The notes beneath the pieces are model-generated. The model was not told the origin of the DNA, searched no databases, and saw nothing but the letters and a program-made list of their open reading frames with translations. The translations under genes and the position numbers were made by a program. Positions 6,414 through 13,729 of a stretch of DNA of 64,000 nucleotides are shown here, one piece after another (within the stretch, counting starts at the first letter, position 1; each line of letters opens with the position of its first letter). Location of the stretch: the IMG/VR virus record IMGVR_UViG_3300008448_000004, positions 116,935 through 180,934 of that record; one strand, written 5' to 3'. The stretch is from a virus.

Positions 6414-9400
6414 TTATCTTATACGTGAGTTAGAATTTAAAACATTGCCGTAACTTGTAACGGTTGCTTTAGAAGTTGCATAGGCTAGTTTATCTGCATC
6501 CACTGTAAGTTGTTTATCTCTAATTGCAGTTAAAATAGCTGTATGCTCTTTTAGAACTTTAACCATTTCAACAATAGTATCGCGAGTATCTTTTCCTAAG
6601 AATACTTCTCCTTGGTCTACTTTTGCTACACCTGTAGTAGTTACTACGCCTCCGGTTGCTAATTTAGGTTCCTGAAGAGGAGTAGCTTCCTTGGATGGAC
6701 CGGTTTTTCCTGCAGCTTTTAATTCATCTCCGTACATACCCAGTACAGCATCACCGATAGGTTTTGCTCCTACAAAGTCTGCAACCAATCCTCCTAGCCA
6801 CCTACCAGCAACATCTCCTGCCATTGCACCTAAGATAGTACCTACGCCTGGGATAGGTATGAGAGATCCTAAAGCGCCTCCTCCGATTGAGCCTAACACA
6901 CCTCCTAATCCTTGCATCACTCTCGCACCGACTGCTTGTGATAGTTCAGGCCCTTTTTTATCACCTGCTATCATCTCCTTAATGTCGTTATTTGCAAATA
7001 CACCTTCTATTAAGGTGCTAACAATAGGTATCTTAACTAATTTTTTTAAGAAACCTCCTATATTTGTTTTTAACCATCCTCCTATAGCCCCTTTAGGGTT
7101 AGCTACAGCAGAAGCTGTTGATTTTATACTGCTCCATATTCTACTAAAGAATCCACCTCCGCCGGTTTTAGCAACATTAGAGGCAGCGGCAGCTGTTGTC
7201 TGAGTTGCGGGTGCAGCTGCTTTAGCTTGTTTTAGAGCTTCTGCAGATGTCATACCGGGGTTAGCTGCTTTTATTTGAGCGGCTGTTTTAACATTCGCTG
7301 ATACCGGTTTAGCACCGGGGGTGGTTGCTGCTGCAGGTGCACTAGCTGTAGCGCCTGCGCTTGCTCCGCCACCTGCGGCTCCACTCATAGCATCTGCTAC
7401 ACCTCCGTATCCTAAAGCTCCTAACAGTGGTGCAGCCTTTCCACCTATCTTTCCTAAAAACTTACCAGTACCGGCAAGGAATCTACCGAACTTGCCCATT
7501 TTAGCAAGCTTTCTTCCCATCTTAAACTTACTACCGGGTTTAGAGCCGCCTAGCATATCTGCTACACCTCCTTCACCTTCACCTCCTCCTGCTCCTGCAC
7601 CACCAGCACCCAGATTAGTTACTTCACTAAAAGTTGGATTACTGCGAGATGAACCTCTGGTAAAGTATTTTGCAATACCTGATAATCCTTTTAACCCTAT
7701 TATGATTGCTCCTATTGAAGCAAACTTCTTAAGCACGTCTCCCAGGATTGGAATATCTCCAATCTTACCTATAAACTGTCCTACACCTTTTACTGCTAAT
7801 ACTATACCTCTAGTTATATCTGATACAAATTTAAAACCGTCTGCTAAAAGTTCTACAAATTGTCCCATCGGCCCTTCTACTATGGAGGCTATAACATCTT
7901 TCATTTTTTCCATAGCTTCGGCAAACCTGGTCTGAGTGTCAACTTGCATTTTTGATACCTCAAAGCTCTTACCTTGGGCGATACCTTGTTCTATTTGATC
8001 CGCTAATTGACCTTTTCCTTCTGCTCTTAGTTTCTTTATCTCATCTTTTTGTGCAGCACTTAACTTATTTAACTGAGCTTGTTTCTGTAACGAATTGGCT
8101 AACTCATCAGCAGACATGCCCATTGACTCAGCAATTGCCTGTTGTTGAATCCTATTTAATTTTTGGAAGTTGTTAATACCGCCGACTTGCTTTAACATCT
8201 CTTCAGCCGCTTCTGCTGTTTTTCCTTCAAGAGCTAAACTTCTAGCTCTACTTAACTCTAAATCACGGCCTGTTAAAACTTCTGCTTCCATTTCTGCTGC
8301 AATAGAACTCTCAAAGTCTAACAGCTTATCTGTCATATTCTTTGTTTGTTCTAGAGTTAGTCCTAGCTTTTGAGCCTGTACTACAGCTTTTGCAATTAGA
8401 GCAGGATCGTTTTTATAGAATGCAGCTAATTGCCCTTCTGTCTTAAGTACTTCTGCAAGTACTTTTTTATTGCTAAATAATCCTTTGTTTTGTTTTCCAA
8501 CATTTTTTACAAGATCTTCCTGAGTAGTGTTGTACTGCATTGCGTACATCGAAAGCTTAGAAGCTTCTTCCCCGCTAAGTCCTAAGTTTCTTGTAAGTAG
8601 TATTTGTCCTTCTGTTAACTTCTCTCCAAAGATGGCTGATGTACCAAAAGCTTCGTTAAGCTGTTGTTGAGCGGCAAGGGTATTCTTTTTAGTCATATAC
8701 TCCTTACCGCTATGTACTGCCATTTCTTCAGCATAGTGGTAGAGGTCTTTTGCTGCATCAGCAGATAAACCATACTGTTTACCGATATCGGCTACCTCTT
8801 TGTTGAACTCCATACCTAGATGGACTAGCTTAGTTACAAGACCGACAGCTAGTCCCATAAGTACCAGAGGATCTTTAAGGGCTGAACCAATACCTTTAAA
8901 CACACCTTTAAGCCCTGCCATTGCAGTGCTCCATATGTTACCATGCTCAGCAGCATGTTCCATACTCTCTTCTATATCCTCAAAATATTTTGTATCGATA
9001 CCAAACTTACCTAGAGCACCAGTTATACCGTGTATTAACTTTCCGGTTAATCCTAACTTCTTTTGAATTTCTTCTTCATGCTTTAAACGAGTCTGGCTAA
9101 GCTTTACCAGGTCATTTAAGTAGTTACCTTCTTCTTGCTTTAATTTTCCGTTCTCATCTAGAATTCCGTTAATCTCTATAAGCTGTGCTTTCTCCTGTTC
9201 TGTAAGTGCTCTAGATTTTGCTAGTTCTTGTAATTCTTTTCTCGTCGAACTTAAAACCGATGTCTGTATTTTTATTTTTTCTTGAAGGGATAATATATCT
9301 TTTCTGTTAAGTTTAGATATACCTTCTTGGTCGTATTTAAACTTATCGGCTATTCCTCCTAACGCTCTAAAAGATTTAGTTATCTCTTTACTCGCAGTGT

Positions 9401-9668
9401 CAACTCCGGTTATATCTTTAACTACATTCTTAAAGGTATCGCTTACTTCTGAAAATCCTCTTTTCATCCTATCTACTCTATCTTCTAAACCGGCTAGCGT
9501 TTGGTCTAGAGCAGTAGTATCTCGTTTAAGAGCGTCTAAAGTTACGCTTTTAAACTCTATATTAAGTTCACGAGCTAACTCTTTTAACCTTAAAATCTTA
9601 GCTTCTATTTGAGCTAATGATTCAGGGCTGGGAGTTTGATCGCCTGTAGGATTTGTTGCATCTACCAT
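6414..9668 (-). CDS. Tail tape measure protein
   Basis: A 1084-residue protein with a long, charged, coiled-coil-rich N-terminal half, hydrophobic helices near residues 270-300 and 630-690 (for example GAIIIGLKGLSGIAKYF), a Gly/Ala-rich stretch (about 700-800), further amphipathic helices, and a C-terminal GGVVTTTGVAKVDQGEVFL segment often seen at the end of tape measure proteins. Position is also typical: directly downstream of the gp26/gp51-like gene with its frameshifted extension, and before the baseplate genes. By the usual 1.5 Angstrom per residue it would specify a tail of roughly 160 nm, longer than T4 (gp29, about 590 residues). The start ATG lies 17 bases after a TATTTATA element. 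Confidence 0.88.
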   Translation of the reverse strand: MVDATNPTGDQTPSPESLAQIEAKILRLKELARELNIEFKSVTLDALKRDTTALDQTLAGLEDRVDRMKRGFSEVSDTFKNVVKDITGVDTASKEITKSFRALGGIADKFKYDQEGISKLNRKDILSLQEKIKIQTSVLSSTRKELQELAKSRALTEQEKAQLIEINGILDENGKLKQEEGNYLNDLVKLSQTRLKHEEEIQKKLGLTGKLIHGITGALGKFGIDTKYFEDIEESMEHAAEHGNIWSTAMAGLKGVFKGIGSALKDPLVLMGLAVGLVTKLVHLGMEFNKEVADIGKQYGLSADAAKDLYHYAEEMAVHSGKEYMTKKNTLAAQQQLNEAFGTSAIFGEKLTEGQILLTRNLGLSGEEASKLSMYAMQYNTTQEDLVKNVGKQNKGLFSNKKVLAEVLKTEGQLAAFYKNDPALIAKAVVQAQKLGLTLEQTKNMTDKLLDFESSIAAEMEAEVLTGRDLELSRARSLALEGKTAEAAEEMLKQVGGINNFQKLNRIQQQAIAESMGMSADELANSLQKQAQLNKLSAAQKDEIKKLRAEGKGQLADQIEQGIAQGKSFEVSKMQVDTQTRFAEAMEKMKDVIASIVEGPMGQFVELLADGFKFVSDITRGIVLAVKGVGQFIGKIGDIPILGDVLKKFASIGAIIIGLKGLSGIAKYFTRGSSRSNPTFSEVTNLGAGGAGAGGGEGEGGVADMLGGSKPGSKFKMGRKLAKMGKFGRFLAGTGKFLGKIGGKAAPLLGALGYGGVADAMSGAAGGGASAGATASAPAAATTPGAKPVSANVKTAAQIKAANPGMTSAEALKQAKAAAPATQTTAAAASNVAKTGGGGFFSRIWSSIKSTASAVANPKGAIGGWLKTNIGGFLKKLVKIPIVSTLIEGVFANNDIKEMIAGDKKGPELSQAVGARVMQGLGGVLGSIGGGALGSLIPIPGVGTILGAMAGDVAGRWLGGLVADFVGAKPIGDAVLGMYGDELKAAGKTGPSKEATPLQEPKLATGGVVTTTGVAKVDQGEVFLGKDTRDTIVEMVKVLKEHTAILTAIRDKQLTVDADKLAYATSKATVTSYGNVLNSNSRIR

Positions 9669-9701: not shown

Positions 9702-9965
9702 CTACTTTTTTGGAGCAGGTACTTTATAGGTAGGTTGTTTCTGAGCTATGTTTGGTTTGTAAATCTCTCTCTTATTATTAGTTGCGTCGTTTAGATCTTC
9801 TTCTCCTTTTTGCTTCTCGTACCAGTCTTTCATTTCATTAAAAGTGTATTTGCGAAGCCAAGTAGGCATTTCATATATATCTAACCAACTGTAACCTCCT
9901 TGTCCGTGAAATACTATTTCATGTATTTCTTTGAAAAGGTAGAGTCTATGCTCAGGACTTAGGCC
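9702..9965 (-). CDS. Frameshifted extension of the tail assembly chaperone (GT-like)
   Basis: An 87-codon frame with no suitable ATG at its beginning; the first Met is 33 codons in. Its protein starts GLSPEHRLYLFKEIHEIVF and continues QGGYSWLDIYEMPTWLRKY, a conserved-looking fold with two helices. It overlaps the end of the upstream gp26/gp51-like gene and can be joined to it by skipping one base (+1) or slipping back two (-2) on the run of seven T at 9966-9972. That would append these residues after ...GTEFF. Position right before the tape measure gene is exactly where lambda G/GT-type chaperone frameshifts occur. I am confident the frame is coding; the frameshift mechanism is inferred. Confidence 0.72.
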   Translation of the reverse strand, partial: GLSPEHRLYLFKEIHEIVFHGQGGYSWLDIYEMPTWLRKYTFNEMKDWYEKQKGEEDLNDATNNKREIYKPNIAQKQPTYKVPAPKK

Positions 9966-10707
9966 AAAAAAATTCTGTTCCGATTGGAATCTCTACGCCC
10001 TCCTCAACGTGTGTATCAGATTCGTAGTCAAACGTAAGAAGTACTTCTGGTTGAATTTCGGTAATATGTTTTCTTAGAGCTCTTGAATCGGGTGCTAACA
10101 TAACATCGACAAAGCCTCTAATTGCTTTTGGATCTCTGTCTCCATTTATCGATGTGATAATCTTTTTGAACCTGGTAGTTACTTCGCTAGATCCGTTAGG
10201 ATTGACTTTTTTCATACCTTGAAGTTCTCTCTCAATATCTTTCTCATCTTTATGAGTTAGTAGTTTGAAAGTGACAATATTGCCGGTAGTAGGTAGTTTA
10301 AATTCAAACTCATTCACACCGGGAGTCTTAACTAAACTTCTATCGAGTTTCTTTTCTTTTAACTTTGTTAAGTCGACGGTGACTTTTTCTGAAGTTCCTG
10401 TAATAGGATTGTAGTAGTTAAAACTGTAATCTTTACCGTATCCTAGAATTCTTGCAGCAATCAGCAAAGCATTCTTATCTGTTATTAGTAGATCGTCAAA
10501 ATTAATCTTAGTGACGATTAGAGATTGTAGTAGTTTATCTAGAACCGTGTTATTATTAATTAGATTAGCATTAGTAAGGATATCTTCCTCTTTTGCTGTC
10601 ATATACTTCATTTCCAGTTTACCGCTAGATAAAGGGTTATCTTGGGGATATAAGAGTCCTTCGGACGGTAGTTCAACTGTTTCGGTCGGTAACTTAAATT
10701 CGCTCAT
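9952..10707 (-). CDS. T4 gp26/gp51-family baseplate hub / tail assembly chaperone
   Basis: A 251-residue protein beginning MSEFKLPTETVELPSEGLLY, followed by KLEMKYMTAKEEDIL, DKLLQSLIV and LLIAARILGYGKDY. This N-terminal pattern (ELPS.G..Y, then MTAKEED) is the signature of the phage family that includes T4 baseplate hub proteins gp26 and gp51. In related phages these genes lie before the tape measure gene and probably chaperone it. The C-terminus ends EFFWPKS at a stop just after a T7 run, beyond which a second frame continues. A TATTTATA element lies 29 bases upstream of the ATG. Confidence 0.78.
   Translation of the reverse strand: MSEFKLPTETVELPSEGLLYPQDNPLSSGKLEMKYMTAKEEDILTNANLINNNTVLDKLLQSLIVTKINFDDLLITDKNALLIAARILGYGKDYSFNYYNPITGTSEKVTVDLTKLKEKKLDRSLVKTPGVNEFEFKLPTTGNIVTFKLLTHKDEKDIERELQGMKKVNPNGSSEVTTRFKKIITSINGDRDPKAIRGFVDVMLAPDSRALRKHITEIQPEVLLTFDYESDTHVEEGVEIPIGTEFFWPKS
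9966..9972 (-). promoter_or_regulatory. Candidate translational slippery site (run of seven T)
   Basis: On the coding strand GAA TTT TTT TGG CCT in the upstream frame becomes GAA TTT TTT GGC CTA after a one-base skip (or a two-base back-slip), entering the downstream 87-codon frame. A -1 shift instead meets a stop after two codons. The site is inferred from sequence only. Confidence 0.6.
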
Positions 10708-10764: not shown

Positions 10765-11328
10765 CTAGAAAACAGTCTTCAAGCTTCTAATAATTTTTTT
10801 ATCCCATTTCTTAAGAACATTCTTGTAGAAGTAAGCTAAAGCATACGGTCCAGAATGTCCTAATTCTAAAGCAAAGCTCTTTATTTCAGCAGAGGTTAGT
10901 TCGATAAGAAGGATGTACTCGTCAAAAGTTGGATCGCCTTCTATATTATTTTTCTTATAATAGTCTCCTAAAGCTATTTCAGCAGTTAAGTCAAAGTATT
11001 TACCATTAGAAGAATTCCAAGCATGATCGAGAGGTACGTACCTGGAAGCTATTCCTTCGCAGTATTTAATGCCTGATCCGCCTGAGTACGCTGTGTAGAA
11101 AGAGTTGTCGTAGCACTGCTTAGTCTTGACTTTTAATATTTTGCTTTTTAACAAATCGTCTACGTCTTTAGCTACAGGTAGGGTTTTATAAGAAACAACT
11201 TTTATAGGTTTAGCTACTTCAGCTTTCCATTTAGCAAACTTTAATTGATCATTTTCAGCATCAAGCATTTGAGAAAGCATTGTTGCTTCTCCGTCAAGAT
11301 ATCGTTTTAATTGGCTTTCTAGTAACAT
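10765..11328 (-). CDS. Unknown tail-cluster protein with Cys/His/Asp pattern
   Basis: A 187-residue protein I cannot assign. It contains QCYDNSF (about residue 90), KYCEGIA, then PLDHAWNSSNGKYFDLTAE. A Cys followed by His-Ala-Trp-Asn and Asp-Leu-Thr recalls the Cys-His-Asp order of papain- or transglutaminase-like folds, but I have no direct family match. The N-terminal 50 residues are helical and charged. It sits between the tail tube and the gp26/gp51-like gene and has its own TATTTATA element and an upstream terminator, so it is its own late unit. Because the element ends 4 bases before this ATG, the real start might be Met17 (11280) or translation may be nearly leaderless. Confidence 0.7.
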   Translation of the reverse strand: MLLESQLKRYLDGEATMLSQMLDAENDQLKFAKWKAEVAKPIKVVSYKTLPVAKDVDDLLKSKILKVKTKQCYDNSFYTAYSGGSGIKYCEGIASRYVPLDHAWNSSNGKYFDLTAEIALGDYYKKNNIEGDPTFDEYILLIELTSAEIKSFALELGHSGPYALAYFYKNVLKKWDKKIIRSLKTVF

Positions 11329-11402: not shown

Positions 11403-11888
11403 TTAGAAGTTAAGTTCGCAGTAATCCATAGCGATTGTCATTTCGATCGTAATGTACTGATCGTTAGACCAATCGTATTCACCGAAGTTAGCTGATTTAA
11501 CGTATGCGCCTCTGATCACCCATTCTCCTACGATATCACCTACAGGGCCTAAGATGTTTAGAGTGACATTCTTTTTATAGAAGTCAGAATAACCATCTCT
11601 ACCTGTGATTGATTCGTGAGATAGACGGATCCATTCCATTACAGTTTGGGCTCCAGAAGGGGTGATAGGGTCGTAAAGCGATAGTGCCATATCCTGCCAT
11701 TCAGCTTTGCCCTTAAGTTTACGGTATACGTTGATGTGATCGAGCTTGATATCAGTAAACTGTACTTGAGGTGAAGCAGCTTTCTTGATGAGGTATGTAG
11801 GGATACCATCGATGTACATTATGAAGCGGTTCTGAACCTTGGGTTCGAAGGCCGTATACATCAACTCATTTGGATCTATTAGTGGCAT
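11403..11888 (-). CDS. Tail tube protein (T4 gp19-like)
   Basis: A 161-residue protein, almost the same length as T4 gp19. Typical features are the N-terminal NRFIMYIDGIPTYLIKKA, DIKLDHINVYRKLKGK, then DMALSLYDPITPSGAQTV and the C-terminal QYITIEMTIAMDYCEL. It forms the hexameric rings of the inner tail tube inside the sheath. It lies immediately downstream of the sheath gene, the usual order, and is followed by a strong terminator. Its own TATTTATA element 15 bases before the ATG is expected for a protein needed in many copies. Confidence 0.93.
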   Translation of the reverse strand: MPLIDPNELMYTAFEPKVQNRFIMYIDGIPTYLIKKAASPQVQFTDIKLDHINVYRKLKGKAEWQDMALSLYDPITPSGAQTVMEWIRLSHESITGRDGYSDFYKKNVTLNILGPVGDIVGEWVIRGAYVKSANFGEYDWSNDQYITIEMTIAMDYCELNF

Positions 11889-11935: not shown

Positions 11936-13729
11936 TTATTGACCAAATGTTGCTCCAGTTGGTAGAATGTTGAAGTCAAGTATAATGAATTCAGCAGTTC
12001 TAGTTGGCTGTAAGTAGATAGCACCTACTAATTGGTTTCTATCGATTACATCTGGAGTGTTGTTTGTTTCATCCATTACAATTCTGTAAGAATATAGACC
12101 CTGTCTTTGTTGTACTGAATCTAAGTAAGGAGTCATTTGATTGACGAACTTAGTTCTTGTAGCAACTGTGTTCTGCTCGAATAAGAAGTTTTCAGCAATT
12201 TGACCAATTTGTCTCTTAAGAGCAATTAATAGTCTTCTTACGTTTACTCTATCAAGAGCAGAAGGCTTAGTTTGTAAGGTCTTCTGACCATATACTACTG
12301 TACCTTGTCCAGGGAATATTGCAATTGGGTTTACTTTACCGTTGTAAAGGTTGTCTCTGTTAGACTTTGTTAATCTGTATTCAGGACCGATTACTGTTGG
12401 CAGTCCACCGCGGTTTAGACCTGCTGGTGCAAACCATTCTGCAGCAATCTTGTCGTTATATGCATACACACCGGGGATGATAGTTGAAGCAGGAACCCAA
12501 CGCATTTTACCTGTCTCGTTAGATCTTACTTGAACCCAAGGCCAGTATGTAGCGGCATAGCTAGTATCGGCTACAGCTGCATTATTTACAGCGTTAGAAA
12601 CACTTTGGTTTTTAGCTGTTGTGTCTAGTACTGCAATTGCATCACCTCTACCTTCGACGATTGTTATTACATCTGCTAGGGTAGTTTCTGCATTTTGAAT
12701 GGCTAGACCTGGAGCATAAATTACTTCGTAGTCGTACCAGTCTTTATTTTTAAGAAGACTGAAAGCTATATCGTAGTTACCTGGAACGAGTCCTTGTATG
12801 TTTTCAGTAGCGTTTGTTGAACCTTCAGGAACACCTGTTATGTTTTCAAACAGCTTTAACGCTTTACCGCTAGTCTTTCCGCCGTATAGATCACCAGCTG
12901 AACCACTGAAAGATCCATTGTATGAACCTGAACCTATTTTAGGTATAGAGCCGGTTGCAGCTGAGTTTGCAGTTCCGTCATTGTTTAAGTATCCGGGCTG
13001 TGCATTAACGTAAGATACTCTCACGAAACGGCTCTTGTTAGCGTAAGATCCTGTAGAGAGTAACTGCCAATCGCCGTTCTCATCTTGAACAGGATACCAA
13101 GACATATTACCGATTTGGTATTCTATATAATTAGGTGTATTTGGATCTAAGCTTAAGTTAGACCAAGTCTCTAATACTGTTTTTTGTTTCTGGTAGTCAT
13201 CACCTCTTCTGATCACAAGAGTGAAAAGTCCGTTCTCTTTATCTGAGTATGATACTTCCCATCTGATATTATTCAATGAACCAGAAGGTAAATACCCCTC
13301 TGCTAGGCTTGCTGTTGCACCTTGGTAGTTGCTTTGGTCAACACCTAAAGCGAGTGTTTCTAATATAAAAGAAACAACTCCAGAGCTTGTAGCTGGTACA
13401 GAAGCAGTTGCAGGTAGGTAACCTCCGTTAGGTATAGTTGCAATTGATCCTGAAACAACTCTTGTTACAATCATAGTCTCACCTCCTTGTTGGAAGTAGT
13501 TATAAACTGCTAAAGAGGTTAGATATTCTTCGGTAGAGCTACCGGTTACAAATATAGATCCAAACTTGCTTGTAAAATCAGAATAAGAAGTTACTACAGT
13601 AGGGTAGTTAACCGGCCCTTTAACGGTAGGACCTACTAACGCGGCACCTGCTACTACAGGTCCTTGTGCTATTTGGGATAGGTCGTTTTCGTTTAGAAAT
13701 ACGCCGGGTGAGATTATTGCTTCTGCCAT
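11936..13729 (-). CDS. Contractile tail sheath protein (T4 gp18-like)
   Basis: A 597-residue protein beginning MAEAIISPGVFLNENDLSQ, with AALVGPTVKGPVNYPTVVTS and a C-terminal half containing FPGQGTVVYGQKTL, VNVRRLLIALKRQI and PTRTAEFIILDF. These are the conserved N-terminal handshake arm and C-terminal core strands of the phage sheath family. It forms the contractile tube around the gp19-like tail tube that drives penetration. Somewhat shorter than T4 gp18 (659), with the variable protruding domains in the middle. TATTTATT lies 27 bases before the start. Confidence 0.95.
   Translation of the reverse strand: MAEAIISPGVFLNENDLSQIAQGPVVAGAALVGPTVKGPVNYPTVVTSYSDFTSKFGSIFVTGSSTEEYLTSLAVYNYFQQGGETMIVTRVVSGSIATIPNGGYLPATASVPATSSGVVSFILETLALGVDQSNYQGATASLAEGYLPSGSLNNIRWEVSYSDKENGLFTLVIRRGDDYQKQKTVLETWSNLSLDPNTPNYIEYQIGNMSWYPVQDENGDWQLLSTGSYANKSRFVRVSYVNAQPGYLNNDGTANSAATGSIPKIGSGSYNGSFSGSAGDLYGGKTSGKALKLFENITGVPEGSTNATENIQGLVPGNYDIAFSLLKNKDWYDYEVIYAPGLAIQNAETTLADVITIVEGRGDAIAVLDTTAKNQSVSNAVNNAAVADTSYAATYWPWVQVRSNETGKMRWVPASTIIPGVYAYNDKIAAEWFAPAGLNRGGLPTVIGPEYRLTKSNRDNLYNGKVNPIAIFPGQGTVVYGQKTLQTKPSALDRVNVRRLLIALKRQIGQIAENFLFEQNTVATRTKFVNQMTPYLDSVQQRQGLYSYRIVMDETNNTPDVIDRNQLVGAIYLQPTRTAEFIILDFNILPTGATFGQ

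Follow-up and report, generated by a model that had tools for sequence, protein, structure and literature searches.

The window, by which we mean the whole 64,000-nucleotide stretch of DNA analysed, belongs to a metagenome contig (an IMG/VR virus record of 180,934 bases) and carries a block of tail genes in the order sheath, tube, gp26-like gene, extension and tape measure:

11936 to 13729, minus strand: tail sheath protein (PHROG 23, 2e-76).
11403 to 11888, minus strand: tail tube protein (PHROG 4542, 6e-25).
9952 to 10707, minus strand: gp26-like gene of the T4_baseplate family, 251 aa, candidate short form of the tail assembly chaperone (TAC-N) (Pfam PF12322, PHROG 150, AlphaFold2).
9964 to 9972, minus strand: putative +1 frameshift site TTT TTT TGG (YTT, then T or C, in 160/160 distinct +1 relatives).
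9702 to 9965, minus strand: gp51-like +1-frame extension, 87 codons plus TAG (conserved frame, dN/dS 0.31, start-codon scan).
6414 to 9668, minus strand: tape measure protein gene, 1084 aa (weak PHROG 167 match, 2.9e-4; same position as the annotated tape measure gene of phage immuto).

The 3' end of the gp26-like gene reads GAA TTT TTT TGG CCT AAG TCC TGA in the zero frame, with a T7 run at positions 9966-9972 of the minus strand. The +1 frame is open from 9992 down to the TAG at 9704-9702. Counted from the GGC that follows the T-run it has 87 codons, the first ATG, GTG or TTG among them being codon 33 (ATG at 9869), and joined to the gp26-like protein it would give a long form (TAC-NC) of 334 aa. 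The -1 frame stops after three codons at the junction, and 33 bases separate the stop codon of the extension from the 1084-aa tape measure ORF. A sequence-only reading of the same DNA had described the T7 run with its coordinates and two frames, an 87-codon frame lacking an ATG near its start, a stop soon met after a -1 shift and a position just before the tape measure gene, all of which we found as described. It had also placed the end of the gp26-like gene seven codons after the run, which was a miscount: four sense codons lie between the second TTT and the TGA, and the stop is the seventh codon from the first TTT. In-frame TTT_TTT_T occurs once in the 8,551 codons of the 18 structural-region ORFs, and TTT_Y 38 times. 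A single copy of the gp26 family was found in the virus record, and no tRNA genes that might tune the shift site were found within the 64-kb window.

The chaperone candidate lies between the tail tube and tape measure genes, which is where long-tailed phages encode their tail assembly chaperone. The same order from sheath and tube to tape measure is found in the Flavobacterium phage immuto, the nearest annotated isolate, whose genes are listed as sheath, tail completion protein, baseplate hub subunit, 36-aa hypothetical protein and tape measure. A 187-aa ORF without a PHROG match lies between the tube and gp26-like genes of the window (10765..11328, minus strand), at a spot that is empty in immuto.

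The gp26-like protein matched Pfam T4_baseplate (PF12322) at 2.1e-8, with 34.5 bits against a curated cut-off of 24.5, and PHROG 150 (baseplate hub) at 3.3e-15. AlphaFold2 models, for which core and extension were folded apart, gave a pLDDT of 92 for the gp26-like core and three helices with a pLDDT of 77 for the extension. The best PDB match of the core was the HK97 tail assembly chaperone gp13 (2ob9), a weak match (Foldseek E 1.2) yet one to the expected family out of 350,542 chains; VIA-align gave this pair a Z of 4.4 over 92 residues, the next row having a Z of 2.4. All matches in the fold search with the extension were weak and unspecific, and a PDB sequence search with core and extension profiles returned nothing relevant. 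From position, family and this weak fold match we infer that the product of the gp26-like gene and its extension is a tail assembly chaperone.

In order to follow the junction outside the window we surveyed 80 close relatives together with more distant loci. Wherever a close relative offered enough sequence, an ORF in the +1 frame was found to overlap the end of gp26. Of all the loci surveyed, 369 could be assigned to a direction, the extension lying in the +1 frame in 174 and in the -1 frame in 195. The +1 loci comprise 160 distinct sequences; as these share common ancestry, the counts that follow carry no probability. YTT followed by T or C stands at the junction in every one of the 160, as TTT TTT T (136), TTT TTT C (10), TTT CTT T (6), TTC TTT C (4), TTC TTT T (2) or others (2), with AAC TTT C in one distinct relative. 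The zero-frame codon in the A site is TGG in 105, TAC in 39, CGN in 13 and another codon in three. Where the second codon of the pair encodes Phe it is TTT in 147/147 cases, against 76% TTT elsewhere in the same genes. Synonymous conservation near the gp26 3' end rises only from two codons before the site to three after it, and dual coding accounts for part of the rise at CCT and the next codon. The extension itself is under purifying selection, with a median dN/dS of 0.31 over 1,494 non-independent pairs. Given this conservation and the single in-frame TTT_TTT_T among the structural ORFs, the junction is more than a chance feature, and the comparative data strongly support the earlier proposal that a programmed frameshift joins the gp26-like and gp51-like frames. 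The expectation that homologues would keep both the T-run and the two-frame layout held for the layout (160/160) but not for the run, which is broken in the variants TTT CTT TGG (6), TTC TTT (6) and AAC TTT C (1) with +1 re-pairing kept; the site of immuto is TTT CTT TGG.

Programmed +1 ribosomal frameshifting on UUU_U, giving a short (gp26) and a long (gp26-gp51) tail assembly chaperone, is the best-supported explanation of these findings, and we hold it to be very probably correct. Most ribosomes would read E-F-F-W-P-K-S-stop and produce the short form, gp26 (TAC-N). On a minority of ribosomes the peptidyl-tRNA-Phe paired with the second UUU would, before the UGG in the A site is read, slide one base forward, from the UUU at 9969-9967 to 9968-9966, where it can re-pair with UUU, so that the next codon becomes GGC (9965-9963). 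Reading of GGC would then yield the long form (TAC-NC), which carries the gp51-like extension of 87 residues behind gp26. Both forms would be expected to coat the tape measure protein and to bring in subunits of the tail tube, in the manner of lambda gpG and gpGT. That the shift takes place in cells, and by a P-site slip, we infer from sequence comparison; a slip of the P-site tRNA-Phe from UUU to UUU while UGG waits is the simplest reading, and re-pairing of the P-site tRNA one base forward is possible in 160/160. Judged from sequence, either the first or the second codon of the pair may be the one that slips at most sites. The requirement of the site would thus appear to be YUU followed by U or C, the T7 run itself being dispensable. 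UUU_Ynn is described as a context in which bacterial ribosomes are especially apt to shift by +1, and prfB shifts at CUU_U (PMC5009743).

The sequence-only reading had left the choice between a +1 and a -2 shift open. A -2 shift, as proposed for phage Mu, would move the P-site tRNA back two bases and insert one extra Phe before GGC; it also joins the frames, and the required re-pairing of tRNA-Phe is possible in 146/160 relatives. In the other 14 (TTC TTT, TTT CTT, AAC TTT) proper re-pairing is impossible, since it would set the P-site tRNA on TCT, ACT or AGT, or a CUU-reading tRNA on TTC, yet these relatives retain both frames as well as the +1 pairing. Hence the +1 half of the alternative is favoured and we regard the -2 half as very improbable, slightly more so than transcriptional slippage, in which RNA polymerase would add or drop a base on the T7 run and translation would be ordinary. 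Slippage of this kind has in its favour the homopolymers of seven Ts at 133/160 sites, but the same frame layout occurs with only three or four Ts at 13/160 sites, where no long run is left on which the polymerase could slip, and with six at 11; we give it a very small chance. An error of sequencing or assembly in the homopolymer, which would make the locus one continuous frame, had been named as an alternative; such indels are common, and the window comes from a metagenome contig. It is contradicted by the same layout in 174 loci from many metagenomes and from isolates (immuto, Mel-JY01, SP-15, LIS04, GXN1), some of them without a long run. Furthermore, two other contigs carry the same gene with 100% protein identity and the same run, which a base-call error in one assembly does not explain, and we consider an error to be the least probable account of all. 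The variants TTT CTT TGG, TTC TTT and AAC TTT C, which break the run and forbid a -2 shift, argue against all three of these accounts together.

Most deposited annotations imply another reading, in which the extension is a small gene in its own right with an independent start; immuto, SP-15, Mel-JY01 and cyanophages all have small separate ORFs annotated at this place. However, 83/160 of the +1 relatives lack any ATG, GTG or TTG in the +1 frame, both ahead of the site and over the first ten codons, and start codons, where present, are not at fixed places. The first ATG of the window's extension, codon 33, falls inside the conserved domain, and the annotated genes of 36-39 aa in immuto and SP-15 span only part of the conserved frame. 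We therefore disfavour an own start in homologues, which the sequence-only reading had offered as a way out, and rate a separate gene about as improbable as transcriptional slippage.

Searches for a stimulator of the +1 shift gave little. Downstream RNA structure found no support, the mean z being -0.91 after +1 sites and -0.80 in a control region. Upstream SD-like motifs are present at 32% of +1 sites against a 10% background, with no rise in synonymous conservation there, and the A-site stop codon of prfB is absent at +1 sites, which have TGG, TAC, CGN or other codons. No conserved stimulator was found at the +1 sites.

In many relatives the gp51-like frame overlaps gp26 in the -1 frame instead. 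These include the cyanophages S-SSM5, S-RIM50 and P-SSM2, Pelagibacter phage HTVC008M, Vibrio phage KVP40, Sinorhizobium phage phiM12 and the jumbo phages Atu_ph07, XacN1 and CBB. Their T-runs are phased T|TTT|TTC or T|TTT|TTT, and TTTTTTC is present in 159/164 distinct -1 loci. SD-like motifs, mostly GAGGG, lie about 5-18 bases upstream of the slip codon at 53% of -1 sites (S-SSM5, for example) against 9% background; the motif is possibly a stimulator, or possibly a by-product of conserved L-E-G-L residues.

T4, 44RR and EC-F2 have two PF12322 gene copies and no frameshift, whereas all phages checked with one detected family copy have a frameshift. The gp51 of these Straboviridae is colinear with the cyanophage -1 fusion across the junction (hhalign probability 98.5%); for the C-terminal part alone, gp51 against the cyanophage extension, the probability was 96.7%, with at most 2.2% in 40 shuffled controls. 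The extension of the window group is linked to T4 gp51 only through intermediates, T4 gp51 alone giving no clear signal over the extension against +1 profiles. Hhalign rows that used the +1-group extension alignment were discarded, as gap-rich columns had been aligned. KVP40, a member of the Straboviridae, has one detected family copy and the -1 site GAT TTT TTC GTA TAA, so within the family to which T4 itself belongs both solutions, the frameshift and the second gene, are found side by side. Campylobacter phage CP220 (loci L394 and L397) has two distant PF12322 copies and no overlapping frame, the longer having about 16 residues more and an end like the cyanophage extension (PFEREIFISLINDEVEEQNK). 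The two are possibly a second, independent two-gene chaperone pair; CP220 was not counted as a firm two-gene case, since the long copy matches the fusions only weakly.

We then placed the two directions on a tree of 116 gp26 cores from which the last residues, which hold the trait, had been removed. At least two changes between +1 and -1 are needed on this tree. The window falls in one large +1 clade together with immuto, Mel-JY01 and LR756508; SP-15, LIS04 and GXN1 belong to a smaller +1 group close to a -1 clade. On this basis we claim that the direction of the frameshift, as judged from the sequences, changed within the chaperone family; neither polarity nor an exact number of changes is claimed, because the tree is a quick one of modest support, with some long branches and no known root. 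The phase of the run appears to set the direction: a T before the first Phe codon with TTC as the second would permit tandem -1 slippage, and a +1 slip would be permitted by a run that begins in phase with the codons and extends by one T or C into the following codon. We think it somewhat probable that one conserved chaperone frameshift changed direction at least twice. A shift of the T-run by a base or two relative to the codons, at an unchanged Phe-Phe, would have turned a tandem -1 slip site (T|TTT|TTC) into a single-tRNA +1 site (C|TTT|TTT|T), or the reverse, with the joined protein kept; in T4 a duplicated gene would have taken the place of the frameshift. If true, a family that switches direction would be a natural experiment on what sets the direction of frameshifting.

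The layout at the window resembles that of lambda G/GT and of the frameshift conserved among long-tailed phages (Xu, Hendrix and Duda 2004, as cited in PMC2147016; reviewed in PMC5009743), with a short and a long chaperone encoded between tube and tape measure by frames that overlap where the first gene ends. The likeness is one of layout, as lambda and most others shift by -1 on a tandem slip site and the window would shift by +1 on UUU_U. With T4 gp26/gp51 the window shares the family, PF12322, and T4 gp51 is colinear with the cyanophage fusion of short protein and extension; T4 differs in having two genes and no frameshift, and other T4-like relatives use -1. An older review lists T4 as an exception to tail-chaperone frameshifting (PMC5009743), and the two-gene solution of T4-like phages has been published (Vladimirov, Gautam and Davidson 2022, as represented in PMC10885494); we therefore rejected the T4 gp26/gp51 pair as a new finding.

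The prfB gene of release factor 2 shifts by +1 at CUU_U, or at UUU_U in a small minority of species (PMC5009743). The chaperone site is similarly YUU_U, exactly CTT T in six relatives, with one tRNA slipping forward. In contrast to prfB, the +1 chaperone group has no A-site stop codon and no close conserved SD-like element, and its site would make two structural isoforms rather than serve autoregulation. The +1 direction is also shared with structural or tail-assembly genes of the Listeria phages PSA, A118 and A500, which shift at CCC_UGA, and of the archaeal virus HSTV-2, for whose tail chaperone a +1 shift is suspected (both PMC5009743); unlike the window, the PSA-type shifts occur on proline codons in capsid and tail-shaft genes. 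In Vandenendeviridae the tail chaperone has a -1 frameshift at GTTTTT (PMC12846349), with a T-run at the 3' end of a previously misannotated short chaperone gene ahead of the tape measure, as here, but in the -1 direction and in a different phage group. At L086 (Streptococcus phage GXN1), L177 and L189 the +1 site is TTC TTT CGT, close to the UCC_UUU_CGU of influenza A PA-X (PMC5009743).

Tail-chaperone frameshifts, the two-gene form of T4 and -1 T-runs in T4-like phages, the last as cited in PMC12846349, are already published. A report of the +1 clade or of the change in direction was not found in the literature searched, which covers Vladimirov et al. 2022 as represented in PMC10885494 and PMC12846349; that work may include a +1 member. 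As far as this literature shows, three things are new: a +1 site in T4-like phages together with the rule it follows, how large the clade is, and a change of direction inside a single chaperone family. Programmed +1 frameshifting is uncommon in bacteria apart from prfB and is suspected in few tail chaperones; in the present case a +1 site is kept across a large, mostly uncultivated T4-like group under a simple rule, YUU_Y, with no obvious stimulator. As homologues reach the same fusion through a -1 shift or a second gene, the direction of a shift, and even the need for one, can be compared within one family.

The joined reading also bears on annotation. At the extension, the records of the nearest annotated phages give a hypothetical protein that is cut short, and GenBank has small separate gp51 or hypothetical genes at the -1 junctions. 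Sullivan et al. remarked that cyanophage gp51 is without its first ~200 residues (PMC3037559), and the joined product would supply these. Small separate genes are deposited at 3839-3949 in L002 (immuto), 4809-4928 in L084 (SP-15), 3178-3360 in L250 (S-SSM5) and 3220-3357 in L257 (S-RIM50); in these records the conserved frame is continuous with the gp26 junction, and a joined gene is probably needed.
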